Origin: Pseudopyrenochaeta lycopersici
Taxonomy: Eukaryota; Ascomycota; Dothideomycetes; Pleosporales; Pseudopyrenochaetaceae
Length of the DNA stretch: 51,110 nt
Direction of reading: 5' to 3'
Assembly: GCA_003313425.1 (NCBI GenBank)
Contig: NHZP01000122.1
Coordinates: 1 to 51,110 of the forward strand
Shown: positions 22,321 to 39,231 of the stretch, in pieces
How the letters are laid out: each line of letters opens with the position of its first letter
How positions within the stretch are numbered: the first letter of the stretch is position 1
Translations under genes and position numbers: made by a program
Notes under the pieces: generated by a model
What the model saw: the letters and a program-made list of their open reading frames with translations, nothing else
Told to the model about the DNA's origin: nothing
Database searches by the model: none

Positions 22321-24254
22321 AGCGCTATAAAGACCTTGAACATTGAGCTGTCTCTTGGGATGCTCTGGAGGGTCGTGAGATGGGTGGCAATTGCAAAGAT
22401 GACTGGGAACATGTGCCATACACGGCATGACCACAGAGAGTTCGAACCAAGCAGGACACCTCTAGTCGCTTGAGATTGACTTACACAAGTGGCGCTGGTG
22501 CGTTGGCGAATACCTGGCTCGTGCTCTGTGGCGTGTGGTAGTGAATACCCGGATTTTGCTGCTTACAACGTACTGTAGCTCTTCAAAGAGAGATATGTGG
22601 TGAAGTGGCGCTACCTGCGGCTTATGGGTCGAATTGTCAGAGTGGACATGCTGTGTAGTATGTCCATGAAGATGCAAGACCGCCAATGGGGGGGTCGCTC
22701 TTGCTCATGCCGACCATTGTCACCACAACGACTAGGGGCTAACGAAATGGTATTGAGCTGTTCGCGAGCGCCCTTTGACCGTTCTGAGCTGTAGTTGCGT
22801 GCGAAGTCTTGCACAGCGGTGTATGTCTCGAAGTGCAAATCAAACGTCGGCTATCGACTGGCGCTAACCCCGCTGTTGTTCGCTCCTTTGCTTGAATCGA
22901 AGGTGATACCCTTGCCGCACCAGAGTAACTTGTTTGCATAACCCGTACAAACGAACCCACCTCGTACACAATTGTTACCTATTCACACGTTAAACATCAA
23001 CAGGGTAGAACACTGATTAGAGGATGTCCAAACCTACAGCCAGGTTTTGCTTCATCGCACTTCTTCTTTCGCCTTCCGCATGTGAAACAACCAGTCCTGC
23101 TTCGAGGTGCGTATTGCTATTCGAGGTTAATCTGGTCCACGAAATAGGCTGCCAAAGACGTACCCTTTCCTTATTCTTCAGTATCGCTGGCACGCCCACT
23201 CGGATCACCTGGGATGCGATTGCTTTTTCGAGGCAACCTGAATTGCTCGTAGCATCCATAGACAAGGGTAACACTGATACGTGGCCAATTCAATGGAGCC
23301 CTGTTCACGACGTAGTAATTCTTGGCCTATACTCTGAGGCACCTGGGGAGGTTCAGTGGTCCGTTGACCCTCAGCCTCTAAACCAACTTGACAAGGTAGA
23401 GTCCGATGCTGACTGTTCTCCATGCTGAATATTCCGTTCCCACCCGCAGCTTGGCATGGAATCATACAAGGCGTTCGCGACTAGGTGGCGTCAAACATAA
23501 TCCTCTTCCGTCAATTCCAAGCGTCTCCTCTTTGCGGACTCTTATGAGGCTTGTACCCACTTGGTACAGCAAGGGGATATACAAATGGACGGGAGACGGG
23601 TGCCTGTACTCGAGCAATCGGAACGCAGAGCCTCATGTATTGGCTACTTCCGATGTTGCTGCTACAAGTTCCGCTGGCTTGTGATGTCTCAATGTACGGG
23701 CTCAGATGGTTCCGATCATGGACCGAGGTGGGCGGAGCCACAGAACTCCGCTTTCCCTTCACGCAGTCGATGTGGAACAGAGCTGATCGATGGCGTTTGT
23801 AACACGGGCGATATGTCGAGCGACCTTTGTCCTATGGTCCGTCTACCTGACTGTAGTCGGAGCTTGTGGAATGTGAGCTTTGCGGAATGTTGTGTCGCGA
23901 GCTGCCTTGCCCTGTGGCCCCACCATGCAGTAGGCGTCTTTGGCGATTATAATAGTAGGAGCGGAGATTGAATCAGTCAAAGTCAAGCGTCGTATGCTAC
24001 AATGGTATTTTGACCAAGGGCTTGAACTCGAGATCTGCACCGCTGTGGTCGAGTATCGATTGGGAACCTGAAGCTACAAATGTTCGCGATGTTGTGGTGT
24101 TATGCGTGCTCCATTGCAAGACACCGACGGCTAACCAGCGAGCGCGCTGTTGTGGCGCAAGAATGGAATCGAGCGGTGGGGGGCGCCAGTGATGACAAGT
24201 TAAATGAAAAAGCGAGTGTTCGCTTCTTCTCTGCGGCACGGTTAAGCGTGCAGG
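22321..24254. other. Intergenic, no supported gene
   Basis: Many short competing frames on both strands; none has a domain or convincing splice sites. A 134-codon plus frame at 23024-23428 begins with a weak signal-like stretch (FCFIALLLSPSACETT) but lacks further support. Upstream exons of the acetyltransferase relic could lie at 22320-22840 on the minus strand. Confidence 0.4.
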
Positions 24255-24258
24255 CCAT
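24255..24258. repeat. Target-site duplication CCAT, left
   Basis: CCAT directly precedes the left inverted repeat and is repeated at 37281-37284 directly after the right one. A 4-bp duplication is typical of Ginger-type and some other integrase-like DNA transposons. Confidence 0.8.
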
Positions 24259-24404
24259 CTACGGTGGACTATTACGCCACGAAGGTCGGAAACCAAAATC
24301 CGAAAACCAAAACCTCGAACCTGAACAATAATAACCATTTACCCGCCCTTGCGCTCTACAACAGGGTATAAATAATAAAGTAATAGACTGTAATAGTTTT
24401 TATT
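24259..24404 (+). repeat. Left 146-bp terminal inverted repeat
   Basis: Begins CTACGGTGGACTATTACGCC and ends in GTAATAGTTTTTATT. It is the reverse complement of 37135-37280 with one difference in the middle (AATAACCAT against AATAGCCAT). It contains three copies of the element-wide GTAATAG motif, one within 15 bp of the tip. Confidence 0.95.
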
Positions 24405-24569
24405 TATAAATTAAATTTATTAATAAATAGTATTGTTGTATAAACCTTTGTCACGTGTCGCACACTTGGGGATAAATTTACCCCGCCCTCAGTTCTCTAC
24501 TCTGTTCTATTACAGACTATTACCAGCGTCTACAAGCTACATGCAAGACTATTGTTAATTATTACTAGC

Positions 24570-26259
24570 ATGCCTCAGCATAGTAAAGTAACTAAGTAAA
24601 GACTTTATATATAACACTAATTAAGCCTAGGGAAAGGAGGCAGGCCTCGTACAAACCTTGCCCTCTACGAGAAAGAATTAAAGGCGCTTTTTGAAGAAGG
24701 TCTTACATTCCGTCAGCTATCAGATTGGCTGTATGAGGAGTATTATGTTAAGTGTAGTATAACTACACTTAAAGATCGCTTTAAGAGATGGGAGGTTCGA
24801 CGTCGCATTACGCCTAACGTAGAGCAACTCCTTAAGAACCGGATTATTGTGCTGTTTTATCAGCTTAATCTAGACGACTCTGAGATTCTTCAGATGCTCT
24901 ATACTGAGGGCTATACTAGTCTTACAAAGGCAACTATTATAAGACTTCGGCTATTACTAGGACTAAAACGTCGTATCCGTAATAAGGATGACCAAGAGGT
25001 TGCTAATATACTAGCCTATGGGCTTATTGAAGAGGAGCTAAAGAAGGGTATTATTGATGGCTATGGGAAGCAGATGCTACAAGTCTACTTTAAGCAACAG
25101 TATATGTTCTTTTCACGCGATCGTCTTTTTAGAGCATACCGCTCTTTAAATCCAGAGGCAGTAGAGCGACGCCGTAACGATCAGCAACGAAGAAGAGGTG
25201 AATATATTGTGCCTGGCCCAAACTGGTGCTGGTCTATTGATGGCCATGATAAACTAAAACCCTTTGGAATCCAAATCTATGGCTGTATTGACGCGTACTC
25301 TCGGTATATTATATGGGCATATATTGGAGTATCTGCAGCAACTGCGCTTAGCGTGCTCCATCAATACTTATATACTATAGGAGACATAAAGGTGTTTCCG
25401 CAGTATCTTCGCTCTGATTGTGGTAGTGAGACTGGGCAGATCTCATACGCACATTATATGCTCTCAAAGTCAGGCCGACCAGATGTTACATGGGATGGGT
25501 GTTATATGTACGGTACAAGCACAGCAAACCAACGTATTGAATCTTGGTGGCAACAGCTATCAAAGGGTCTGCTCTTTCGGTGGAGGGTAAGTAAAGCTCT
25601 AGGCTCTCTGTTTAACGTAGCTTTGGACTATTACACTAACTATTACAGGTGTACTTCCGAGACCTACAGACTACTAATCATTTCTCAAAGGACCGCCTCT
25701 CTGATATGGTAGCAATGGTTGCTATATATCTCCCAGTCCTACGCCGTGAAATAAAGTCCTTCATCTTCTCATGGAATTGCCATCGTATACGGAAGCAGAA
25801 AAACCGTCCTAATGTTATTACTGGAAAACCTAATATGCTCTACATGTGTCCACCAGTAGGGACAGTAGACTATAAGCAGACTCTACCCCAAGATGAGTAC
25901 CAAAGAATCTGTCAAGAGGCACCAGCATGGGATATAGACGCTATCCTTCCCTTACCTACTCAGAGATGGTGTGACGTCCAGTTACAAGATATAGGCTTTA
26001 ATCCTTATACTGAAGACCTGGGCGGCATATATGAACGGAAACAGCCATTTGAGCGCTATTATTTAGAGCTGCGTCGTCGCGCTGCTCTCCATATTGAAAC
26101 AAGGCAAGTGCCTATACTTCAACTTCTTGAGTCACCAACTGGTGGCTGGGATTTCCAGGTTAGTTTAAGTGCTATTATTTATAACAAGGTACTAACGCGA
26201 TTACCTAGCCACCAGATATAGAAGGATGCGACTTTACAACTGATAATGTAGAAGGTTAA
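24570..26259 (+). CDS. DDE integrase-core transposase of the TIR element
   Basis: Exons 24570-24582, 24631-25586, 25649-26158 and 26209-26259 give 509 aa; introns are 48, 62 and 50 nt. Residues 5-12 form an AT-hook-like RKGGRPRT. Residues 15-120 form two helix-turn-helix-like units (FRQLSDWLYEEY; DSEILQMLYTEGYTSLT). The catalytic core at about 203-312 has D208 (WSIDGHDK), D267 (LRSDCGSE) and E308 (NQRIESWW), a D-58-D-40-E retroviral-integrase-like triad, with CIDAYSRYIIW between. The rest is a conserved-looking C-terminal domain of unknown role. It should bind the ends and perform strand transfer giving the 4-bp duplication. The first exon is only 13 nt and is the least certain part; a start inside exon 2 has no ATG before the HTH. 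No break seen, so it is potentially active. Confidence 0.88.
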
Positions 26260-26431
26260 TACAAGGAGAATTAGGAAGGGGTTTGTGTTTCGGGTAATGG
26301 TCGGTAATAGTCGGTAATAGTACCATTTCTAGCTTAGTCCCAGCCACAGTGTTAGCTCGCACACAACTATTTAAAGTCTATTTATCTATTAATTAGTCTA
26401 TCTATAATATACTCTTATTACTCTTCTAAAT

Positions 26432-27674
26432 ATGGCGGCTATATGGGGTCTATTCTGTATGGATAATGGTAGACCACACAACGACATGGACATCCTAGTT
26501 GGTCGTCATTGTACCTACTGCGGAATTCGAAACCCTGGGCTAAATAGCAGAGACAGTAGGCTAGTAGAGATAAACGTTGATACCTTACCAGAGCAGGACC
26601 AACTATCTCGGCGGTCAATGACTGTTGCAGTCTCCCAAATACAACCATCTCGAAAAGTTGATCAGCTCGCCCCGCTTGCCTCTACTGCACAGCGTGCCCA
26701 TCTTAAGAATGAGGCAGCTCTTCAGCGACTTAAATCAATTAATGGGCGGATAGGCGCCCAAGCCCGGCAAGCAAGTACTAGTAGTACAACAACAAAGTCT
26801 ATATTAGGTCAGGCTTCAATTGTTAAAGTTGCCTTTGACGTTACTTTCGTCCATCTAATTTGGAATGGCGGCACTATTATTGAGGCTATCAATCCATATG
26901 GTACGTAAATACTATTCCTTGTAATAGCCTGTAATAGTACTAACAGACCTAGGTGGTGATATTGGTGTTCAGATCGCAAGCACTGTTGAATTCTCCTCCC
27001 TCCACGACTTCGTGCAGGACTTTCTTCTTTCTGAAGTTAGCCAAGTACGCCTACGAGATATACTTAACCTACCTCGCACATATGCCATCAAACTAACTGG
27101 AACAACGCCTCAATATTTCCCAGAATCCGCGTATAAATGTACGTCTCTGCAATCGCTGCTTGAAAAGATACCATGGAAAGAAAGCAAGGATACTAGACGA
27201 TTTGTGGTTTGCTTTGAGGATCATACACAAGAGGAGGACTATAAGCTAGGGCTTACAACTCCAACACCTAAAAAGCCTAGACAAATCAGTCGGAGGCCTA
27301 AGATAAAATCAGAGTTACAAATTAAGGCAGAGAAGAGTAGCCTAGTTAAGGGCAAGGGCAAGGCTATCAGAGCTCTCAATACTGTTAGCAGCTTTGAAGA
27401 CTTTGCTGATATCGACGCACTAGACCTTACAGGCGATAGGGCTATTACGCCTACAGTAGAGACTATTACACGCAAGAGGGGTGTTTCACAGGTAGAGCAA
27501 CCACAAGCAAGTCGAACTACACCGACACACACTGTCCTAGAAGATACAAGCGAAGCTGAACTAAGTCCAACAAGCTCTACGTTTACAGACCAAACTCCCG
27601 TTAAGGATACGCCGCTAATAACTACTCGTTATGCTACTAGACGGAACCTAAGGGCTAAGCAAATATTTAATTAA
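26432..27674 (+). CDS. 396-aa protein of the TIR element, function unknown
   Basis: Two exons, 26432-26900 and 26953-27674, joined in phase 1 through a 52-nt intron (GTACGT...ACCTAG) that contains two GTAATAG motifs. The N-terminus has a possible metal-binding CTYCGIRNPG segment (two cysteines plus H26). The middle (VKVAFDVTFVHLIWNGGTII and FSSLHDFVQDFLLSEVSQVR) looks folded. The C-terminal 150 residues are basic and disordered (KPRQISRRPKIKSELQ, KGKGKAIR) and end in YATRRNLRAKQIF. It lies directly downstream of the transposase in the same orientation. A DNA- or chromatin-associated accessory protein is an inference from charge and context only. No family recognised. Confidence 0.75.
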
Positions 27675-27713
27675 ATGTACATTCTTTACTTAAATAATAA
27701 CGTTACTTTCTTT

Positions 27714-28313
27714 TTAGCTACTCTTGCCTTTTAACAGCTTCTGGCGTGTATCTTGTCGTGTACGTGGCTGGTTATGGGTCCAGTACTCTGAAAGCTCAAT
27801 GTTAAACGCTGGTAATCTACCAAACCTTGCTTTTGGTTGGAAGTTCATACGTTGGCTATAGGAAATACCCTCGTCTATAAGGATTTGATCGATAGATGGC
27901 CAAGCCTTAGAGCTATCAATCTCCTTAGCCTTCTGAACCCAATGAATACCAGCGTGGATCCTGTAGCCATTAACAGCTATTACATAAGCTATTACTCTGC
28001 GTCCATACATTGATAATATAGACTGTTGTCTAGAAAGCTTCTCTAGTTCTGCCTGCGCAAGCCTACGTTCCTCTTCGTCTAGCAAGCATAGCTGATCTTC
28101 CTTTAGCCGAAAAAGGGCAGCCTTTGCTTTACTAATATATGTATTATTTGCAGATCGTGCCTGAGCAATAAGGAGTTTAGAGCTCTTAGCCTCACGTAAC
28201 CGGTCGCGATATCTATTATTCTTCTGCGTAAATTTGTTCCTAGACTTGCGGCATCGTGTAAACGGGTCTGACGGAGAGGGTAGAGCGTGGGGTAATATTG
28301 CGTTGGTAGCCAT
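27714..28313 (-). CDS. 199-aa basic coiled-coil protein of the TIR element
   Basis: Single exon, ATG at 28313, converging with the 396-aa gene only 39 bp away. The N-terminal half is basic (CRKSRNKFTQKNNRYRDRLR) and runs into a helix (KAALFRLKEDQLCLLDEEER, RRLAQAELEKLSRQQ) that looks like a bZIP-style basic region plus coiled coil. The C-terminal half is compact (GRRVIAYVIAVNGYRIHAGI) with a basic tail (RTRQDTRQKLLKGK). A paired GTAATAG motif lies about 90 bp upstream of the start (28400-28427). A DNA-binding role, perhaps at that motif, is an inference. The family is unknown. Confidence 0.7.
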   Translation of the reverse strand: MATNAILPHALPSPSDPFTRCRKSRNKFTQKNNRYRDRLREAKSSKLLIAQARSANNTYISKAKAALFRLKEDQLCLLDEEERRLAQAELEKLSRQQSILSMYGRRVIAYVIAVNGYRIHAGIHWVQKAKEIDSSKAWPSIDQILIDEGISYSQRMNFQPKARFGRLPAFNIELSEYWTHNQPRTRQDTRQKLLKGKSS

Positions 28314-28798
28314 TAACGCTATAATAAGATTAGAACTTATTAAACAAGTACTTTAAGCAGGCAATAATACCTATGTAGATGCGTCCTTATAGGATATTCA
28401 CTGTAGCGGTAATAGTCTTGTAATAGTAGGTGTAGAGGCAGACGTATAGATAAGTGGACGGGGCCCTGCGTGCAAAATTAACTGAAGCTGATCTGGTGGG
28501 CCGTGCGCAAGAGTAGAACATTACGTAAGCATTTTTAAGTGAAGCGTTATTATTAGTAGAAACGGAGACAGAGGTAATAGTGTGTATTAACTAGAAAACT
28601 ATCTAGTTATATAGTTCAGAGGCATCCCAATATGCCAAAGTACTACAGCATTATCTACGTAAAAGCGCCTCAAAGCGCCTGGGTATTATGCAAACTTAAG
28701 GCTATTACAGAGAATGCCTAGACTATTACGATCTAGAATTGTAGTAGGCTCGTATTCTTTATCCATCTAAAGGATTAAAGAACATGTTGATGTGTTTC

Positions 28799-28972
28799 TG
28801 TCAGATACAAGCAGCGATCGTACGCGATACAGCATTGTAGCACAAAGCTCGGGTGTAACCACTTGGCACACACACACTACATAAAAAGGAAAAAAATAGC
28901 AAAGAACTTAATGATGAATACAATGAAAAACCTATCAACATACCTCATCGCATTTGAGCATTCTATCTGACA
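28799..28972 (+). repeat. Copia 5' LTR
   Basis: 174 bp, TG...CA ends with 9-bp inverted tips TGTCAGATA/TATCTGACA. Very short for an LTR. It matches 33868-34041 base for base by eye. Confidence 0.95.
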
Positions 28973-29009
28973 ATTAAGAGTCTCACTGTCTCAATTACAC
29001 TCTGAAACA

Positions 29010-30257
29010 ATGTCGCTGTCGACAATGCGAGAACCAACCGTACTCCTAATGGACTACACGACGTACACGCCATGGCTGCAACAGCTAGAAACGCGATGCG
29101 TCTCCCTTGACGTGTGGGAACAGATAGATCCTACTCAAAATACTCCTCTGAAAACGAAACCAAGAATCCCAACCGAGCCAGACATCACGAAGTACGAGAG
29201 AAAGACGACGCTTGGTATCGACGACAATGGAGCACCTCTGCGACCAGAGGCCCCGTCCGAGCTCTCAACAAACGGCCTCAAGGCGTGGAAGGAGGACACC
29301 GACTTCTACAAACTCCGCCTTGAGTCATACAAGATAGCAGACAGAGACTATCGCGAAGAACGGGCGAATATGGACAAAGTGGTGGTATATATCCAACAAT
29401 CAGTATCACCCCACCTCATGAAGAACTGCTGTAAGCCAGGTGAACCAATTCGAACGTGGCTCATCAGCCTGAAACAAACCGTCGGAATAGACGCCGAAGA
29501 AGAACGGTTGCGAGCACGTCACCGATACCTAGCCGCCCTCAAACCAATGAGACAGCCCGGGAGTTGGGACACCTGGCTCTCGGAATACGACCACGCCGCA
29601 ACGAACGCGGAGACCGAAGGGGTCGCTGAAATACAGAATATACAAGATATCGTACAAGACTTTCTTGACTCAGTCATGAAGATAGCACCAACCTGGGCAA
29701 CGACATTCCAGGACTATGGTCGGCGAGAACAAAATATGACTCGCAAAGAAATGATGAAACGCTTCCGAGAACACATGAGCAAGTACCACCCTTTAAAGGG
29801 GAAGCAGCAGAGGGGCGCCTTTACTGTAGGGAACACCTCATTTCTCGCTGCTGGTGGTGAATCCACCCCGGGCACTGACAGGGACGCCTCTCACGTTGCC
29901 GATAGCGCACCATCCACTCCAACCACACAGGGGAGTCGGGGAAGACCTCGTCAAAAACGAACTTTTGGTCAAAATACCATATCCAAGCAGTCCTCAACAG
30001 GGGATACAGCGGCAGCTGAAGGAGTAAAATGCCCTGCTTGTGAACAACGCCATGGACTAGAGAATTGTTACTATGTCCACACAAATAAAGCACCAGAGTG
30101 GTTCACACCTCGCTCAGGAATCGCAGCGATGGTAAGGCACCGACTGGAACATGACGCTGACCTGCAAGAACAGCTTAGGAGCGGGAAAAGAGCTCGCACA
30201 AAAACACCAACCATCAAAACGTCAACGTCTCAGACACCCGAAATGTCTACGGAGTGA
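29010..30257 (+). CDS. gag: Copia Gag
   Basis: 415-aa capsid-type protein. A helical N-terminal domain (YTTYTPWLQQLETRCVSLDV...) is followed by the Copia Gag core (ILQQSVSPHLMKN-like YIQQSVSPHLMKNC; RHRYLAALKPMRQPGSWDTW). The C-terminal part is basic and carries a zinc knuckle-like CPACEQRHGLENC (about residues 346-358). The stop is TGA at 30255-30257, followed in the same frame by CTAGAG and then an open frame into Pol. Gag forms the intracellular virus-like particle that packages the element RNA. The ATG at 29010 lies 37 bp after the 5' LTR. Confidence 0.92.
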   Translation: MSLSTMREPTVLLMDYTTYTPWLQQLETRCVSLDVWEQIDPTQNTPLKTKPRIPTEPDITKYERKTTLGIDDNGAPLRPEAPSELSTNGLKAWKEDTDFYKLRLESYKIADRDYREERANMDKVVVYIQQSVSPHLMKNCCKPGEPIRTWLISLKQTVGIDAEEERLRARHRYLAALKPMRQPGSWDTWLSEYDHAATNAETEGVAEIQNIQDIVQDFLDSVMKIAPTWATTFQDYGRREQNMTRKEMMKRFREHMSKYHPLKGKQQRGAFTVGNTSFLAAGGESTPGTDRDASHVADSAPSTPTTQGSRGRPRQKRTFGQNTISKQSSTGDTAAAEGVKCPACEQRHGLENCYYVHTNKAPEWFTPRSGIAAMVRHRLEHDADLQEQLRSGKRARTKTPTIKTSTSQTPEMSTE

Positions 30258-30261
30258 CTAG
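30255..30261 (+). promoter_or_regulatory. Probable stop-codon readthrough site UGA-CUA-G
   Basis: Gag and Pol are in the same frame, separated only by one TGA followed by CTAG. UGA CUA is a known leaky ('type II') stop context used by several RNA viruses and some cellular genes, normally with a downstream RNA structure, which I could not assess. No +1 or -1 slippery site is needed since the frame does not change. Confidence 0.75.
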
Positions 30262-33200
30262 AGGGACGGAAGATTTCAACGATTAATGCTGCCTTAACTG
30301 CTGCATCATTTCGAGCAGAAGCTTCAGACTATCCACTGAGGCACTCGTTTATTTTGGACTCAGGATCCACGATACACATCACGAACGATCGTAACCGAGT
30401 CCGAGACCTCAGTCCGCCTACGGCTGCAGACTGTATTTGGGCCGGAAATACACGGATCTGGATACAAGGATACGGATCAGTCCTACTCGACCTCATCGGA
30501 CCGAACGGGCCGACTAAACTCGAACTGCGCAACGTAGCCTGGTGTCCAGACATCCTGTGTAATTTGGTCTCTTTTAGACTACTCAGACAGCAAGGGATGT
30601 GGTGGGACAACCAGAGTGACCCTACTGCTCTGAAGAGACGGGATAACACTACAATCACACACCTGAAGGAGGCACATGGCCAATGGATACTCGAACACCA
30701 GGACAAGGGCGAAGCCGCCTTCTTCACGAAAGCAATCAACTCCCGCACCAAGCGATCAGCACAGAAGGCCGACGCCATGCGGTGGCATAGGCGAATGGGA
30801 CACCCAGGACCAGCAGCAATCGAGCACTTAGTCCAACAATCTGAGGGGGTGCGCATCAAAGGAATCACCACTGTACAATGCAACGCATGTGGAAGAGCCA
30901 AGACTAAACGCCAGATAAGACGCACACCCCGAGTACACGACCAAGGGCCTGGGGAAAGACTCGCTATTGACTTCCACACGTACGAGGAAGGAAGTTCAAC
31001 AAAAGAGAAGAGTCAGATGCTAGTTACTGATCGGTACTCTGGTTTCATGTGGGATTTCTACTTCAAGGACAATCGACTCGGAAAGTCCATTATCGGGTTC
31101 CTGGATATCATCGTCCGCTTCCTGAAGAAGCAGTACAACATTACAGTCAAGGTCATCGAATGCGACGGAGAGATCGCGACTACTAAACCCGAAGTTTCAA
31201 GATGGTGTACCGCGCGCTCAATTCGATTGGAGCCTTCCGCCCCAGACACTCAATCCCAGAACGGTGGAGCTGAACGCTCAGGGGGTGTGGTAAAAGACAA
31301 ATCGCGCACGATACGATTAGACGCAAACCTACCATGGGAACTGTGGCCAGAGATCGTACGAGCAGCAGTGTACCTATACAATCGAACGCCAAACTACTCA
31401 AACGCCTGGAAATCACCCTACGAAGTTTTCTTCACTACGGCAGCCCTGTACGATGGCATAATTACCTCCCCGCGGAAACCGAATCAAGCCCATCTTAAGG
31501 CATACGGTTGTAAGGCATTCGCCCTTACCGACGATACACTTCGAGGCAAATCGCGACTCCAACGTCTCGACCCCAGAGCATGGATAGGATACCTCGTTGG
31601 ATACCGATCCTCCAATATCTACAGAATCTGGATTCCATCCATGGCCAAAGTAATCAGCACTCGAGATGTAGTGTTTGATGAAGAATTAATATTTGACGGG
31701 AAGACGGAAGACCTTATGGACAACCTTATGCACAGCACGCTAAACGAGATAGCTGCATGGATGAGGACAGTTGAACTGCCAGAACCAACCCATGAGGAAC
31801 CAGAGACCCAAACGTTTTATGAAGACGACACCATTCAAGACTCTGAAACGACCCAGCAAGGTAACCAACCGGGTTACTATCAAGGGAGGAGGATCAACTA
31901 CACCTACCCCTCTCCGCCAACTACTCCGCCGCCAGTAGCTCTGCTTACGCAACTTTTATCTGGCGAGCATCAAGGAGATAGCCAAACAACATCTGGCTCA
32001 TCAAAAACGATTCCTTGGGAAGCGGCCTTTATAGCGGGCACCCAAGCAGGGCACGTTGGAACCCACAATGGGAAGATAATCGACAAGGCCCAGATGAAGC
32101 GAATGTTGGCCCAAGGATTAAAGCCACATCAAAGCGAGTTACCGCCGCTGCCAACTTCTCACACAGGAATTGAGAAACATCCTCTCTGCGAATGGTTCAA
32201 GGAAGCTGAGAAAGAGCACCTTAAAAGCCATCACAAGATGAAATCATGGTCCGAAGTGCCAATAAAGAAGATCAAACTGACAAGACAACAGATCCTCGAT
32301 TGTATGTGGGTGTATACCTACAAACTAGACAAGAACCATCACTTGCTGAAGTGTAAGGCGCGACTCGTCGTCCGAGGTGACCAACAAAGGAATATTACCT
32401 CACAAGACACTTACGCAGCTACTCTCGCCAGCCGTTCATTCCGAATGCTGATGGCAATAGCAGCTCACTACAATCTGGAGCTCAAGCAATACGATGTCAC
32501 GAACGCCTTTGTCCACGCAACCATGGATCAAGAAGTATACATGAGAATGCCCCACGGCTACCGAAAGCCCGGAACGATACTCCAGGTAAACAAGGCTTTA
32601 TACGGTCTCCGAATCTCCCCTCTCCTCTGGCAAAAGGAATTCACATCAACCCTCAAGAAACTTGGCTTTCAGAACGTCCCTCACGAGCCATGCTGCCTAA
32701 TTAAAGACGGAATTATCATATTCTTCTATGTCGACGATATCATTCTTGCATACAGCAAGCAGAAGGAGACTGAAGCCCAGCAAGCGATTCAACATCTTAG
32801 AGACAAGTACTCTATCACAGGTGGAGATGATCTTCAATGGTTTCTTGGAGTTGAAGTCATTAGGAACCGAGAGCAGCGCAAGATCCAGCTATCACAAGCA
32901 GCATACGCGGACAAGATCAGCCGCTTAGTCGGCAGAAAAGACATCCGACATGACACTCCAATGGCAGCCATTGAACTAAAGCCCCGAGACGGCCTAGCTA
33001 CTCCATCAGAAATCAACAAGTACCAACGCAAGATTGGATCTCTGCTATATGCAGCTGTTACAACCCGACCGGACATCGCCTTTGCAACATCAAGACTGGC
33101 CCGATTCCTTATGAACCCTGGCACTGAGCACCATACAGCAGCTGACCGAGTTCTCCTTTACCTCCAAAGCACCAAATCAAGAGCCCTTGAGCTTGGTGGA

Positions 33201-33764
33201 GATGACTGTCTTGAAGTAGCGAGCGATGCCTCGTTTGCAGACAACACAATCGATAGAAAGAGCTCGCAGGGATACACAATCAAGTTATTCGGCGGTTTGA
33301 TTGCTTGGAAAGCAAGTAAGCAAGATACAGTCACAACATCGACTACAGAAGCTGAGCTTCTTGCGCTATCACAAGTGGCAAAAGAAGCTATATTCATATC
33401 ACGACTACTTAAGGAACTGCAAATCAATCTGCCTGAGGACACAATCACGATACAATGCGATAACACTCAAACCATCCGGCTAATCAATAATGAAGTCTCA
33501 CGGCTGCAAACCAAGCTCCGGCATGTGGACATTCACAATCATTGGCTGAGACAGGAGGTGTCAAGAAGAAGTATTCGGGTCATCCATGTCCAATCGGCTG
33601 ACATGCTAGCTGATGGCTTTACAAAGGCGTTGCCAGCCAACAAATGGACACAGTTTCTAAGCCAAATGGGCCTGGTAGAACTCACAGGAAGCAGAGAAAT
33701 AACAGCAGCACGCCTTGAAGAGATCCAAAGCCAAATTGAGAAGCTAGAGATCGAACAGGCGTAG
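30258..33764 (+). CDS. pol: Copia Pol (protease, integrase, reverse transcriptase, RNase H)
   Basis: The frame is open from the codon after the Gag stop, so Gag-Pol would be a 1,584-residue readthrough product. Counting from 30354: the aspartic protease DSGST is at 2-6; the integrase zinc HHCC (HRRMGH... CNACGRAK) starts near 144; catalytic D (LAIDFHTY, about 204), D (IECDGE, about 270) and E (NGGAERSGG, about 310) follow. Reverse transcriptase has TYKLDKNHHLLKCKARLV near 660, NAFVHATMDQEVYMRMP and the YVDDI active site near 791. RNase H has ASDASFADN near 956, DRKSSQGY and STTEAELLALS. No stop or frameshift is seen. The lack of an ATG before the protease supports translation as a fusion. Confidence 0.95.
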   Translation, partial: LEGRKISTINAALTAASFRAEASDYPLRHSFILDSGSTIHITNDRNRVRDLSPPTAADCIWAGNTRIWIQGYGSVLLDLIGPNGPTKLELRNVAWCPDILCNLVSFRLLRQQGMWWDNQSDPTALKRRDNTTITHLKEAHGQWILEHQDKGEAAFFTKAINSRTKRSAQKADAMRWHRRMGHPGPAAIEHLVQQSEGVRIKGITTVQCNACGRAKTKRQIRRTPRVHDQGPGERLAIDFHTYEEGSSTKEKSQMLVTDRYSGFMWDFYFKDNRLGKSIIGFLDIIVRFLKKQYNITVKVIECDGEIATTKPEVSRWCTARSIRLEPSAPDTQSQNGGAERSGGVVKDKSRTIRLDANLPWELWPEIVRAAVYLYNRTPNYSNAWKSPYEVFFTTAALYDGIITSPRKPNQAHLKAYGCKAFALTDDTLRGKSRLQRLDPRAWIGYLVGYRSSNIYRIWIPSMAKVISTRDVVFDEELIFDGKTEDLMDNLMHSTLNEIAAWMRTVELPEPTHEEPETQTFYEDDTIQDSETTQQGNQPGYYQGRRINYTYPSPPTTPPPVALLTQLLSGEHQGDSQTTSGSSKTIPWEAAFIAGTQAGHVGTHNGKIIDKAQMKRMLAQGLKPHQSELPPLPTSHTGIEKHPLCEWFKEAEKEHLKSHHKMKSWSEVPIKKIKLTRQQILDCMWVYTYKLDKNHHLLKCKARLVVRGDQQRNITSQDTYAATLASRSFRMLMAIAAHYNLELKQYDVTNAFVHATMDQEVYMRMPHGYRKPGTILQVNKALYGLRISPLLWQKEFTSTLKKLGFQNVPHEPCCLIKDGIIIFFYVDDIILAYSKQKETEAQQAIQHLRDKYSITGGDDLQWFLGVEVIRNREQRKIQLSQAAYADKISRLVGRKDIRHDTPMAAIELKPRDGLATPSEINKYQRKIGSLLYAAVTTRPDIAFATSRLARFLMNPGTEHHTAADRVLLYLQSTKSRALELGGDDCLEVASDASFADNTIDRKSSQGYTIKLFGGLIAWKASKQDTVTTSTTEAELLALSQVAKEAIFISRLLKELQINLPEDTITIQCDNTQTIRLINNEVSRLQTKLRHVDIHNHWLRQEVSRRSIRVIHVQSADMLADGFTKALPANKWTQFLSQMGLVELTGSREITAARLEEIQSQIEKLEIEQA

Positions 33765-33867
33765 CTAGACGGCGATCAATGCTCCTTGTACACGACCTCG
33801 AGATTCACTAGAAGACAACGGAAGTGGTTCTTGTCCAGCTTGAAATGGTTTCCAAGCTGAGGGGGTG

Positions 33868-34041
33868 TGTCAGATACAAGCAGCGATCGTACGCGATACA
33901 GCATTGTAGCACAAAGCTCGGGTGTAACCACTTGGCACACACACACTACATAAAAAGGAAAAAAATAGCAAAGAACTTAATGATGAATACAATGAAAAAC
34001 CTATCAACATACCTCATCGCATTTGAGCATTCTATCTGACA
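33868..34041 (+). repeat. Copia 3' LTR
   Basis: 174 bp, preceded directly by a purine-rich GAGGGGGTG (33859-33867) that is the likely polypurine tract for plus-strand priming. Followed by the GTTTC target copy. Confidence 0.95.
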
Positions 34042-35550
34042 GTTTCTCTGAGGGCATATCGCCAGTTTTGCAGGTAACCATATTAATGAAGTATTTAGCC
34101 TTTTCTCCATCAAAGTGCTTAAGGGGGAACCTGTCAAAGGAGCTTATATATATTAGTAATAGTCTAGTAATAGTCTATGTCTCTGCTTACCGAGCGTCAA
34201 CAAGAGTGCGGTGATAGTATGGCCCAGGGAGAGATATTGGCAGCCCATCTCTTGCTAACTGGATCTTAGACGTTGCGAATATTCCCTCAAGCTGGCAAGT
34301 ATAGAACATAGCCAGAATAGTGCGTTCTGGTTTTGTAAATAGCCGCCAGAAAGGAAGCATTGGAAGCCTAGAATGACCGTCACACTCAAGACCACCTTTA
34401 TTTCGCGCAGTTGAGTGCTGATACACCCAGCGAAGGATACTACACTATATTACAGTTAATATTCATATCTAGTCTCTAAAAAATAAGGTCTTACCTTATC
34501 TCCTGGGCGTATGTATGGCCAGGCTCTATCAAATATTTGTGTAGACCCTGGTAGAAGAAGGCGGAGGATTGTCTATCTATGTATTAGCCCATGTAATAGT
34601 CAATGTATTAGTCGACTCTTACTTTATACTGCCTATTGTTCATGCGGCGCACGTAGGCTTCGAAGGGGTATTTCTCTAAATACTCCAATTTCTCTGAAGC
34701 TAATAGGATAGCTTTAGACCAATATCCCTGTACGTATTCCCAGGAATAAGATGTATGGAGTTTCAGCATATCAAACTCAGTCTCTCTAATAATTTTATCG
34801 TCAAGATCTGGGAGCCACGGATCAATCTCGTCGTCTTCAGGACTAGGATCTACAATCTTTATTGCAGTATCTTCATCCCACACCTCGAGATTTGGGAGGC
34901 TAGATGTAATAGTACCTGTAATAGTTGAGGAAGAAGCAAAGGCGTGAGTGGGTGGTGTAAAGTCTGGTCCTAGTTGAAAGATGCGACCCTGCGCTGTGAT
35001 GAAGTGACTCATTGGCAGAGTTGGCTCTGTAGGAAACTCATGTAGTAGTGTTTGCGACCAATGCTTGTTTGTAGTAAACCTAAATTCCCGTTAGAGCTAT
35101 TACAAGGACTATTACAAAATCTTACTGCTTATACACTAGAACATTTTTAGCCTGAATGCGTAGTTCTGCCATGAGACTTGGTTTATCTCCCTGGGCAGCA
35201 TTTTGTAGGAGGTGATGCGCAGCTGGAATGAATTTGAGGTTGAAGAATCGTGAAAGAGCAGTATTGAAAGCAGCTTTGCCTTTTGCCCTGCTGAAATCGC
35301 TTCCCTGCTGCTTCTCTCGACGAGCGTTGTTTTTGATAGTGTTTGGATTTGTTGAATATTGCCCATCAAGCTTTCTCTTCTTCCGATCAGGCTGCTCCAT
35401 ATTGATGTAATAGGCTGTAATAGACTGTAGTAGTAGAGTTATGGTGTAGAGTTGTAGGTTAAGAAGTAGCAAAGTTTTCTATATATACTACACAGGACAG
35501 CCGCTATTAGGGATTACGTAGCCACAGGTGAAGGCAGGTAAAGTGGGTAA

Positions 35551-36028
35551 GTGTAGATAGGATATACTACATTTACGTAGAAAACTGTCGCATTCTAAAG
35601 AAGACCTATTTCGTGATTGCATTAAGCAGCTAGTTCAGAAATGGGCTATTACAGTGACTATTACTCTACTGCTAAATTTTTCCAATTCTAAGGGTACCCA
35701 GAGCCTAGAGTAAATTTAACTGCTAGTAGGTGAAAGAAATAAGTGTAGATAGAGTATGCTAATTTTACGTAGAAAACTGTCGCATTCTAAAGAAGACCCA
35801 TTTCGTGATTGCATTAAGCAGCTAGTTCAGAAATGGGCTATTACAGTGACTATTACTCTACTGTCAAATTTTTCTAATTCTAAGGGTACCCAGAGCCTAG
35901 AGTAAATTTAACTTCTAGTAGGTGAAAGAAATAAGTGTAGATAGAGTATGCTAATTTTACGTAGAAAACTGTCGCATTCTAAAGAAGACCCATTTCGTGA
36001 TTGCATTAAGCAGCTAGTTCAGAGATGG
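35551..36028. repeat. 192-bp tandem repeat, about 2.5 copies
   Basis: Copies start at 35551, 35743 and 35935 (partial, to about 36028), each with GTGTAGATAG, then ACGTAGAAAACTGTCGCATT, the block AAGAAGACC(C/T)ATTTCGTGATT and the run CTATTACAGTGACTATTAC. Copies differ at a few positions. They lie between the divergent 399-aa and histone genes, so they may act as promoter or maintenance sequence. Their period is close to a nucleosome repeat length (an observation, not evidence of function). Confidence 0.9.
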
Positions 36029-36266
36029 GTTATAAACTATTACTACGACTAATACATCTGTTAATATGCGTATAGGCTTGCTTTTGTAGGCTTCTCTCAC
36101 CCACTTCACCTAACTTCACTTCACCTTCATATCTGTTGTCTACTAAATATATATATTGCTCTCTCCAGCCTTGTTCTACGACCTTACGCCCTCGCTCTCC
36201 TACCCCCTATACTAGAGCTACTTCAAAACCATTACAAACTATTACAACTATCTCAATTCAACTACA

Positions 36267-36989
36267 ATGGCTCGCACAAAGACTTCGCATAGGAAACAGG
36301 GAATGTATAGAGGCAAAGGGTCTAGGAAGACTACTACAAAGTCCGCCAGAAAGGCTCCTCGGAAATCTAATAAGGCTTCTCGTAATGATGCTAATGAAGG
36401 TAGTAGTTGTAATAGTCTGCCTAGTGCTCCCTTACTAATTGCCTACAGTTGTTCAACCACGGAAGGCGATCTCCTACAACTTTAATACTCCTAGAGCCGC
36501 TATCTACAGAGGGGTATCTAGTGGCGGCGTTAAAAAGAAGAAAACGCGCGGCGGTAAGCTTAAAGTACTGTAAATGAAAGACTATTACTAATTTGTAATA
36601 GTGGAAGCACTTCGTGAAATTCGGCACTACCAGAAATCAACTGGCACGCTCATACTGCCTACCCCATTCCGCCGCCTCGTTCGAGAGATCGCTGGAGAAG
36701 TGTCAGGAAGAACTACACAGCAAGGAGGGTGTCGCTGGCAGCCAGCAGCGCTTGACGCCCTACAGGAATCAGCTGAACACTTTCTAACTACTGTCCTCTC
36801 AGGTAAGAACTAATCGTAATAGTCTGTGTAATAGATTAATAACTATCTGCAGCCTCAAACTTAGCTGCTATTCATGCAAAGCGCATCACAATCCAGCAGA
36901 AGGATATGAGGTTAGCATTGAAGCTGTCAAGTATGCTGAGTTCGTGGGCTCCTATCGTGGACCAAGTATGCAAGACAATGGGCTACTAG
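36267..36989 (+). CDS. CenH3-like histone H3 variant encoded by the TIR element
   Basis: Four exons, 36267-36399, 36449-36553, 36602-36802 and 36853-36989 (introns 49, 48 and 50 nt, all phase 1), sum to exactly 192 codons (191 aa). The tail starts MARTKT like canonical H3 and is Lys/Arg-rich (RKTTTKSARKAPRKS). The histone fold runs about 82-171: EALREIRHYQKSTGTLI (alphaN), PFRRLVREIA (alpha1), loop 1, WQPAALDALQESAEHFL (alpha2), NLAAIHAKRITIQQKDMRLA (loop 2-alpha3). Loop 1 is about 6 residues longer than in canonical H3, and the residue after it is Trp (RWQ) instead of Phe, both hallmarks of CENP-A/Cse4/Cnp1-type centromeric histones. The C-terminus has a 20-residue extension. It would enter nucleosomes with H4; the role in the element is unknown. 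A TATATATATTG lies about 115 bp upstream and a GTAATAG-type pair near 36230-36245. Confidence 0.9.
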
Positions 36990-37134
36990 GACAGTAATAG
37001 TCGTAATAGTCTGATAAAGGCTATACTAGTCATAGGGTAGGCGGATAGGTTTACTCTGCGAAAGCGATTCATAAGAGAGGGAATTTCTCTATGACTCATA
37101 TGCGAGGTTTGGGGTTCAAATTCTAGATAGATTG
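36990..37134. other. Histone gene 3' flank up to the right inverted repeat
   Basis: Contains two GTAATAGTC copies directly after the histone stop (36994-37012) and an imperfect palindrome around AGAGAGGGAATTTCTCT at 37074-37090. No gene. Confidence 0.5.
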
Positions 37135-37280
37135 AATAAAAACTATTACAGTCTATTACTTTATTATTTATACCCTGTTGTAGAGCGCAAGGGCGGGTAA
37201 ATGGCTATTATTGTTCAGGTTCGAGGTTTTGGTTTTCGGATTTTGGTTTCCGACCTTCGTGGCGTAATAGTCCACCGTAG
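37135..37280 (-). repeat. Right 146-bp terminal inverted repeat
   Basis: Reverse complement of the left repeat, 145/146 by eye, followed directly by the CCAT duplication at 37281-37284. Near identity of the two ends suggests the element moved fairly recently. Confidence 0.95.
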
Positions 37281-37284
37281 CCAT

Positions 37285-39231
37285 CCCTGCCGTCCCCGCC
37301 GCCACGTTGGACCGAGCGGGCGCAACCTCCACACCTTCGCTTATCTTTTCCAGTCGGGATCACAGGGCTTATACTGAACCATTCGAGTGAAGACTTGTCG
37401 CAGGCCAAGGCATCATCTCAGGGAACCTGAGGAAGAACTGCATTAGTAATCTTGCCATATAATCTCAGACGTGCGGGGTCAGGTTTATAAGACCAAGACA
37501 CAATACACACACAATACAACTTTTCTGCTCATTATCAATTATTTTGACTTCTCATCATTTCAGCACGTCCAGTGCGACAAGACTCAACGCCTGCTCGCGG
37601 GACGCCCGTAATTTATCGTCGTTGACGATTGGCAAAAGGTACTATACACGCCTAATACTGCACGCACGTAGACTCGCGTGATTCACTATGCTTGGACGAG
37701 CGTGCACAGACGAGCGTGCACACGCTTTAGCGCCGCTAACGTGCCAGGGGAGACGAAATGCAGCGACTGAACAAGGGCTCTGGTTGGCGGAGGATTTCTC
37801 TCCTGTCACCAATTAGCACATGCTTTTCGACAGTCCGCCTGGTACATTCTTGAGCGTCGATATTCTGCTGCGCGCGCTGGATTTGCAGACATAAATCGAT
37901 CAAAATCGAGGCTCACTGCATCCGTAATCAAGCCAGGCAGGTACTATTGGATGTCGGCACTGAATTTGCTTCCTCGCGTCGTCGGGATTTCTGCGCTATA
38001 GTTAAAAAGCACACTGATCACTGTGTCCATCAACTCTCTCTGTGTCAGGAGCTGCCACTTGCCGAAGGAGGTGAGGGACTGACTGTGAAAAGGCTGAACT
38101 GCACCCTGTATACGAGTCCGCTGCACTGAAGCATAATTGCGAGATTATAACATCTGTCATGAGCGTCAGTTACGAGGCGGAGGGCCTCATGCGGCATTGC
38201 TACCGGACGTGGTAATCGAACCATACGCCGGTGTGAGGACAATTTAGCGGATGTAAAAGCAATAAATCGCACGATAGTTTAGGGCCTCGTGGTTATCACG
38301 GCCATTGTCATGAATGTCGCAGTACGCGCAAGGCGTCCCTTCTCCAGGAGTTGGAGGGAATTAACAGCAACTCTATCATGGCGACAGCTTTCATGCAAGC
38401 GCTGTACATGATAATTAGGTTCGGGTTATCGAAAATACCGGTTTGTATAGCTGTCCATGCATACATACCTAGCCCGTCGTGCTCACCTGCTCACGAGGCG
38501 AGGAGGTTTAGATGCAAAAACCAATGCTTCGTTACAGTACCACCGGTGGTGCAAACGGCTTTCTAGGTGGGGCGCACTGTAATTACCATCTCTAGCCCTA
38601 CGAATTTCTTTTTGCATTGTCGCATCCTCTCATTAGCATTGCTGCCTGCCACGAACTCAGAGGAGAGACTGCTCCGATGGCTAGTTTAGTGAACAGAGTT
38701 CTAAGCGTTTGTGGCCCCTTCGAGCATTTCAAAATATGGGAAAGCGACCACAGACTGGACGCCGGTGACCAGCCTGACCATTCAGGGACACTGTCTTTGG
38801 TATGCAAGTAGTCAAGGATTCATTATTTTCCTTGATAGCACCGCCCCTTTTATCTCTAGTGCAAGTCGACATATGACGCTCTTGGAAGCTGTTACATGGA
38901 AGATCCTTCGGTTCTTGTGCAAGTTGTAAAGGATGTGAACATGAAGGAGCACTTTGATACTTGGCATACCTCTGTCTTTGGCCAAGCTTAGTCTTACAAA
39001 GTAGATATGGGTATCGCTGAACGAATTGTGTACGTATCGTCTTGCATTGATTATAAAGCAAAAGCCAGTCTCAATCCATGGGACAGCTGGGATACTCATA
39101 TTAGACCTTTTACATCGAATCTGTTGGAATCCGCCAGAAACTACTGCCAGAGTGGTTGCAACCATCAATCCGGTCTATATATCGATAGTCAGATACACTC
39201 GTCAAAAGCAGGTTGAAGCATCAAATGGACA
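37285..39231. other. Intergenic right flank of the element, no supported gene
   Basis: GC-rich host DNA next to the element (CCGCCGCCACG near 37295). Only frames under 120 codons that overlap on opposite strands (38598-39168); none has a domain. Confidence 0.45.

Follow-up and report, generated by a model that had tools for sequence, protein, structure and literature searches.

A histone H3-like gene and a paired motif array in a DNA transposon of Pseudopyrenochaeta lycopersici that fits the IS3EU superfamily

Histone H3 genes in hAT-type DNA transposons were published in 2013 and 2019 (PMC3538342, PMC6710886; these and all other published systems are described here from the parts of each source that were available to us). 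We compare them with a DNA transposon of the fungus Pseudopyrenochaeta lycopersici that carries a predicted H3-like gene and fits a different superfamily, IS3EU. The element lies on contig NHZP01000122.1 of assembly GCA_003313425.1 (a 62.7-Mb genome in 188 contigs); this contig, C122, was analyzed as a whole, and all 51,110 bp of it are referred to as the window. The transposon occupies positions 24260–37279, which amounts to approximately 7.77 kb once a nested Copia-type retrotransposon is excluded, and the H3-like gene is located near its 3' end at 36267–36989. We propose, with a probability of roughly 45%, that the predicted histone is standing cargo of the element and is likely to be built into chromatin, where it would weaken host silencing of the transposon.

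The hAT element of Pyrenophora tritici-repentis has terminal inverted repeats (TIRs), a transposase gene, a central gene of unknown function, and an H3-like gene (H3L) with an altered tail. It occurs as 10 copies of a form of approximately 5.6 kb and 16 copies of a 2.3-kb form with little repeat-induced point mutation (RIP); expressed sequence tags were found, and H3L was placed by its authors in neither H3 nor centromeric H3 (CenH3) (PMC3538342). Compared by description, the window element is likewise a TIR DNA transposon with a transposase and an H3-like gene, but it is of the IS3EU type, measures 7.77 kb, and its other copies are RIPed. The hAT elements of Pseudocercospora, Cercospora, and Sphaerulina are flanked by 8-bp duplications and hold amplified, RIPed H3-like sequences, described as an intronless retrocopy, with every element copy inactivated (PMC6710886). 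These elements and the window element have RIPed, amplified H3-like cargo in a DNA transposon in common, whereas the window element has introns, one un-RIPed copy, and 6-bp duplications. The authors of the hAT studies call their cases transduplication, with function left open or the copies seen as inactivated (PMC3538342, PMC6710886).

Other transposons provide precedents for cargo directed against silencing. Fungal transposons with TET/JBP dioxygenases, IS3EU elements included, are thought to escape silencing by removal of marks, and their IS3EU members have TAYGG..CCRTA ends, TIRs of more than 30 bp, and 6-bp target duplications (PMC12730594). The window element is like them in its ends and duplications, but its cargo is a histone rather than TET/JBP. 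Styx of Zymoseptoria (7927 bp, four frames, IS3EU-linked DDD/E transposase) also shares the 6-bp duplications; its cargo consists of proteins with GATA, CCHC, and DUF3577 domains, and no histone is among the four genes in the part of the report available (PMC10853768). The VANC proteins of Arabidopsis VANDAL elements recognize short motifs arranged in tandem in the introns and intergenic regions of these elements, and their binding leads to loss of DNA methylation (PMC5735166). Histones are also encoded by DNA viruses, another case of histone genes on parasitic DNA, but viruses are not transposons (PMC9145170). The open-licence literature searched yielded no description of a histone on an IS3EU element. 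Two features appear to be new here, judged from sequence. The first is an H3 gene with introns in a transposon superfamily other than hAT, within a genome where a RIPed hAT-H3 family is also present; the second is a 46-motif GTAATAG array, mostly in head-to-tail pairs, that resembles the plant VANC target arrays.

The H3-like gene is predicted to have four exons on the plus strand. Exons 1 (36267–36399) and 2 (36449–36553) encode the tail, exon 3 (36602–36802) encodes the start of the fold with a long loop 1 and the sequence RWQ, and exon 4 (36853–36989) encodes the end of the fold, an extended C terminus, and the stop. The three predicted introns (36400–36448, 36554–36601, and 36803–36852) are 48–50 bp long with GT..AG borders and contain one, two, and two GTAATAG motifs, respectively; the 3' end of the second, TAATAG, belongs to one of these motifs, and the exons contain none. 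Joined in this way, the exons of the window copy stay in frame for 191 codons plus a stop without any internal stop, in agreement with the four exons and 192 codons of the original prediction, which had also placed GTAATAG in the introns. A complete H3-type histone fold, also predicted at the outset, was confirmed by profile search (Pfam Histone, E 1.7e-26). The best match of solved structure was Cnp1 (E 8.8e-25), and a Histone H3 chain (4jjn) was next (6e-23).

The fold retains ALREIR, QKST, PFRRLVREIA, ALQES, NLAAIHAKR, and KDM, and a W is present in the C-terminal part of the protein. We take AIHAKR and KD to serve H3-H3 and H4 contacts. Loop 1, measured from REIA to RWQ, has 13 residues compared with 7 in host H3, and the excess of approximately six residues claimed previously is therefore correct. 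The tail starts with MARTKT, which had been noted together with KDM, is longer than the H3 tail, and contains the R-K sites HRKQ, SRKT, ARKA, PRKS, and PRKA. No ARKS motif was found in the tail of the window histone; in host H3 (L063), ARKS surrounds K27 and also, with an intron interposed, K9. Within the fold, 52 of 96 aligned residues are identical to a host CenH3 candidate, so named from its RWQ and loop 1, and 45 of 82 are identical to host H3, approximately 55%. There were no near relatives of the window histone among the best 120 of 1169 proteins.

The main rival to our proposal is a passenger gene: a host H3 or CenH3 caught once by transduplication, without function, and open in the window copy only through recency. 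There are many documented cases of genes captured by transposons, and the hAT-H3 elements were interpreted in this way by the groups that described them. The intron positions argue against it. The fold of host H3 is uninterrupted from STGG to HAKRVTI, and that of the host CenH3 candidate is interrupted only at QRLV/REIA, but the two fold introns of the window histone, before VEALRE and at VLS/ASNLAA, lie where neither host gene is interrupted (the comparison covers these two introns). Motif-bearing introns, two of them at positions with no host break, point to long residence of the gene in the element. Identity to host H3 and to the CenH3 candidate of only approximately 55% in the fold, yet with no stop and the core residues kept, also fits a passenger poorly, as does the recurrence of H3 in unrelated transposons. 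We therefore consider a functionless passenger possible but rather unlikely.

The GTAATAG array extends from 24269 to 37270, without strand assignment, and comprises 46 motifs in 19 pairs and 8 single sites when the Copia-type element is excluded. In 300 first-order Markov simulations of the 7774 bp, the mean was 2.3 motifs and the maximum 7. Outside the element, there are 3 motifs in 38,090 bp of flanks, and the nested Copia-type element has none. Of the neighbors no more than 25 bp apart (n = 19), 17 are spaced at 9–13 bp, approximately one turn of DNA, and 16 of those 17 are head to tail; this orientation is found in 18 of all 19. The motifs occur chiefly in introns and between genes, as well as within and beside the TIRs. 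Reading frames fill 63% of the element but contain only 4 of the 27 clusters (7 of the 46 motifs), a depletion with a binomial P of 3.1e-7 when counted by cluster with approximate frame borders. Six predicted introns of 46–62 bp, 301 bp in total, hold 11 motifs, and they were probably acquired or rebuilt within the element. The array is like that of VANDAL, in which copies of a short motif lie in introns, between genes, and in the non-coding ends (PMC5735166, PMC10398659). In contrast, VANDAL elements are plant elements for which DNA binding by VANC was shown and, in the parts of those reports available, no histone was described, whereas in the window element binding to the array is a proposal.

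RIPed 5' parts of other copies keep 21 of 21 motifs (first C77 copy) and 19 of 21 (C33), and RIPed 3' parts keep 17 of 25 (first C77 copy), 15 of 25 (C2), and 12 of 25 (C68). A reading of GTAATAG as a RIP-proof motif was considered and rejected: it has no internal CpA, but 24 of the 46 motifs follow a T, so their first G can be targeted.

Motifs placed within and beside the TIRs, in pairs approximately one helical turn apart, could also belong to the transposition machinery, with the histone and the paired sites joining the ends or shielding excised DNA. The one pair tested, GTAATAGTCNGTAATAG, is private to the element, with 13 of 13 genome hits within its copies. However, the sites are spread over the whole 7.8 kb and are not clustered at the ends, and IS3EU-type Styx was reported with other extra genes, none of its four being a histone in the part of the source available (PMC10853768). 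A role in transposition is, in our view, improbable.

At least 11 copies of the element were identified in the genome by TIR and body matches; the DNA search covered this 62.7-Mb genome, and all copy numbers given are minimum values. Nine copies retain a 3' end (C122, the first C77 copy, C33, C15, C2, C31, C14, C4, and C68), and all nine hold the H3-like gene. Neither of the other two gave a match to the 3' end: the match in C5 extends only to base 2053 of the 5' query, and that in the second C77 copy ends short of the gene, at base 1813 of the 3' query. The presence of the gene in all nine 3'-ended copies refutes a one-off insertion, and the long residence originally suggested is upheld by this presence together with the motif-bearing introns and the fold introns at no host break.

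The gene and 300 bp upstream were compared between the window and the eight other copies, three of which start 9 bases in and one 58. C to T or G to A changes account for 1158 of the 1170 differences. In ten longer stretches from the eight copies, 39–92% of CpA and 13–62% of CpG were altered, compared with 1–8% of CpT and CpC. By this measure, the window copy is the un-RIPed one among the copies found. As the copies differ almost only by RIP, they were near-identical before it, and the gene was already present when the element spread. The same observation is a point for the passenger explanation, in that the burst was recent relative to other mutation. The sole un-RIPed copy found lies on its own 51-kb contig.

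Pfam Histone did not recover the RIPed copies of the gene, which were found only in searches with DNA or with the H3-like protein. A genome search with Pfam Histone gave 20 matches, of which only 1, that of the window, came from the window element family and 12 came from RIPed hAT elements. Because RIPed copies escape Pfam, a missing Pfam hit near further transposase relatives (C11, C15, C19, C26, and C32) does not show that a histone is lacking there. One such relative, C11:184972-185907, is 49% identical and has 9 stops in 312 codons, whereas other long copies have 19–34.

The original prediction identified the gene as a CenH3, and a true CenH3 might steer the element to centromeres or mark it as centromeric chromatin. 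Loop 1 with six residues more than H3, RWQ, KDM, the C-terminal W, and Cnp1 as the best solved match are all in favor. RWQ and the long loop 1 are indeed present, but a long loop 1 and RW were also found in other divergent H3 sequences not known to be CenH3, so they are not specific marks. The tail, moreover, begins as in H3. Best hits do not discriminate either, and the best hit was rejected as a CenH3 test: the host CenH3 candidate itself scores 143 bits to Cnp1 and 140.8 to H3. In an unconstrained tree (32 rows, 95 columns), the window histone fell beside an Apatococcus protein, an algal H3 variant (support 96/86), apart from the four CenH3 rows and from canonical H3. This tree has little power, with 16 of 27 inner branches open and an unsettled bootstrap, and it also splits the CenH3 rows, the host CenH3 candidate failing to join the other three. 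Approximately unbiased (AU) tests did not reject a clade of the window histone with the four CenH3 rows (p 0.276), nor one with three other ascomycete H3-like proteins (p 0.327). We lean against the window histone being a CenH3, an identity that the sequence comparisons do not support, and regard a centromeric role as improbable. The window histone shares PFRRL, ALDALQE, and KDMRLA with the Apatococcus H3 variant and with a metagenome protein (P0007 and P0006), and the tree groups the three. The literature searched yielded no report of a CenH3 on a transposon, and the claim of novelty stands to that extent, but it does not extend to H3 on transposons, given the hAT reports of 2013 and 2019.

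The same genome contains a second transposon family with a RIPed H3-like gene in at least 12 copies (L008-L010 and L012-L020; for example, C89:58751-58921), and 11 of these repeat copies are 91.5–97.3% alike to L008 over their aligned parts. Pieces of one copy were read on the other strand with stops as X; one gave the hAT dimerisation domain PF05699 (E 8.6e-13), and the other matched no Pfam family. This second family is the kind of element described in Pyrenophora and the Mycosphaerellaceae (PMC3538342, PMC6710886). The window element is not a hAT by its transposase, which has an integrase core, and the 3.2-kb hAT-H3 loci gave no DNA match to it. The tree places the hAT histone next to an Alternaria gaisen protein (98/92) and the two together with three CenH3 rows (87/80, unstarred). 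The Alternaria gaisen protein (P0121, 163 aa) is H3-like and possibly another transposon-borne H3. The hAT histone is nearest to host H3 (51 of 74 residues identical) and shares 39 of 83 with the window histone. One origin for the two transposon histones was not rejected (AU test, p 0.175), but we lean toward two captures.

Several results point toward a histone that acts for its transposon: a histone fold that keeps AIHAKR and KD, encoded in nine of nine 3'-ended copies; a motif array distinguished by its enrichment, head-to-tail pairing, and non-coding and intron placement; the recurrence of H3 in hAT elements of Pyrenophora and the Mycosphaerellaceae, in the hAT-H3 family of the same genome, and now in an IS3EU element; and the anti-silencing cargo of TET/JBP transposons, IS3EU among them, and of VANDAL with its VANC proteins. 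In such a mechanism, the transposase or one of the three element proteins of unknown function would read the GTAATAG motifs as an address, the variant histone would be deposited at the motif sites, and the resulting nucleosomes would be poorly read by the H3K9 or H3K27 methylation machinery. The fuller version, in which the transposon writes its own chromatin and a private H3 variant with a private address keeps it out of host heterochromatin, we consider doubtful.

A number of observations weigh against the histone as a means of weakening silencing. All eight other gene copies are RIPed, so carrying the gene gave the family no protection from RIP, and the bases exposed to RIP include the first of each motif that follows a T. 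Apart from RIP, the copies are near-identical and offer no usable differences for testing selection among them. Because K4 and an R-K-S triplet (PRKS) remain in the tail, it may still be methylated. A seventh predicted intron (24583–24630) has no GTAATAG, and the motifs could be nothing more than sites for the transposase. Pfam detected no DNA-binding domain in the element proteins of unknown function.

Assignment of the transposon to IS3EU comes from its termini, TIR length, and 6-bp duplications, all of which fit that superfamily. The 5' TIR (24260–24404, plus strand) starts with TACGG and the 3' TIR (37135–37279, minus strand) ends with CCGTA, matching the TAYGG..CCRTA and >30-bp criteria. 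The inverted-repeat arms are 146 nt long, as had been stated, and 99% alike, but each includes at its outer end one base of the target duplication, so the TIRs proper are 145 bp. The duplication, GCCATC, is found at 24254–24259 and again at 37280–37285. Inspected by eye, a 6-bp duplication is exact in five of eight two-ended copies (C122, the first C77 copy, C2, C4, and C31), matches at 5 of 6 bases in C33, and is not seen in C14 or C15. The first C77 copy (95720-103492) is uninterrupted, without the Copia-type insertion.

The predicted transposase gene (24570–26221, plus strand; exons 24570–24582, 24631–25586, and 25649–26221) encodes 513 aa, although its first intron is one among five joins that keep the frame. 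The protein has DDE residues in SIDG, SDCG, and RIES, matches the PF24764 Integrase core above the cut-off (E 1.4e-28) and rve below it, and is 75% identical to a Clathrospora elynae protein over 496 residues. It is followed by a predicted two-exon gene (26432–26900 and 26947–27674, plus strand), whose 398-aa product has no Pfam family above the cut-off, and by a minus-strand open frame (27714–28313) of approximately 200 aa with many basic residues and no Pfam match. A predicted multi-exon gene at 34187–35402 on the minus strand has exon 1 at 35126–35402, exon 2 at approximately 34611–35079, and further exons downstream; the model is incomplete, and three pieces of it gave no Pfam family above the cut-off. 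Between this gene and the histone gene, just before the latter, are three tandem 192-bp repeats (35548–36123, plus strand), the second 95% and the third 60% identical to the first. Repeats 1 and 2 each have one GTAATAG pair, and repeat 3 has one motif. Their length is near that of a nucleosome repeat. The nested retrotransposon (28799–34044, plus strand; 177-bp long terminal repeats, 99% alike) is not part of the transposon itself, did not figure in the original prediction, and is presumably of the Copia type, judged from its protein. The open state of its two long frames, of 428 and 1168 aa, suggests that RIP spared this element.

The weight of the finding lies in the recurrence of H3 and in the motif array. 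Two unrelated transposon superfamilies have H3 as cargo, and a single genome contains two such families. With roughly twelve thousand genes in a fungal genome (12,141 in P. tritici-repentis; PMC3538342), a repeated return to the same one suggests that a transposon gains from owning a histone. If the histone alters chromatin, then it would give a parasite a lever on one of the most conserved proteins of its host, and it would be a natural altered-tail H3 that could be tested directly for its effect on H3K9 and H3K27 silencing. The paired motif array provides a defined address for testing the hypothesis, and if the transposon does write its own chromatin, it would provide the first example of a mobile element with a sequence-addressed histone.
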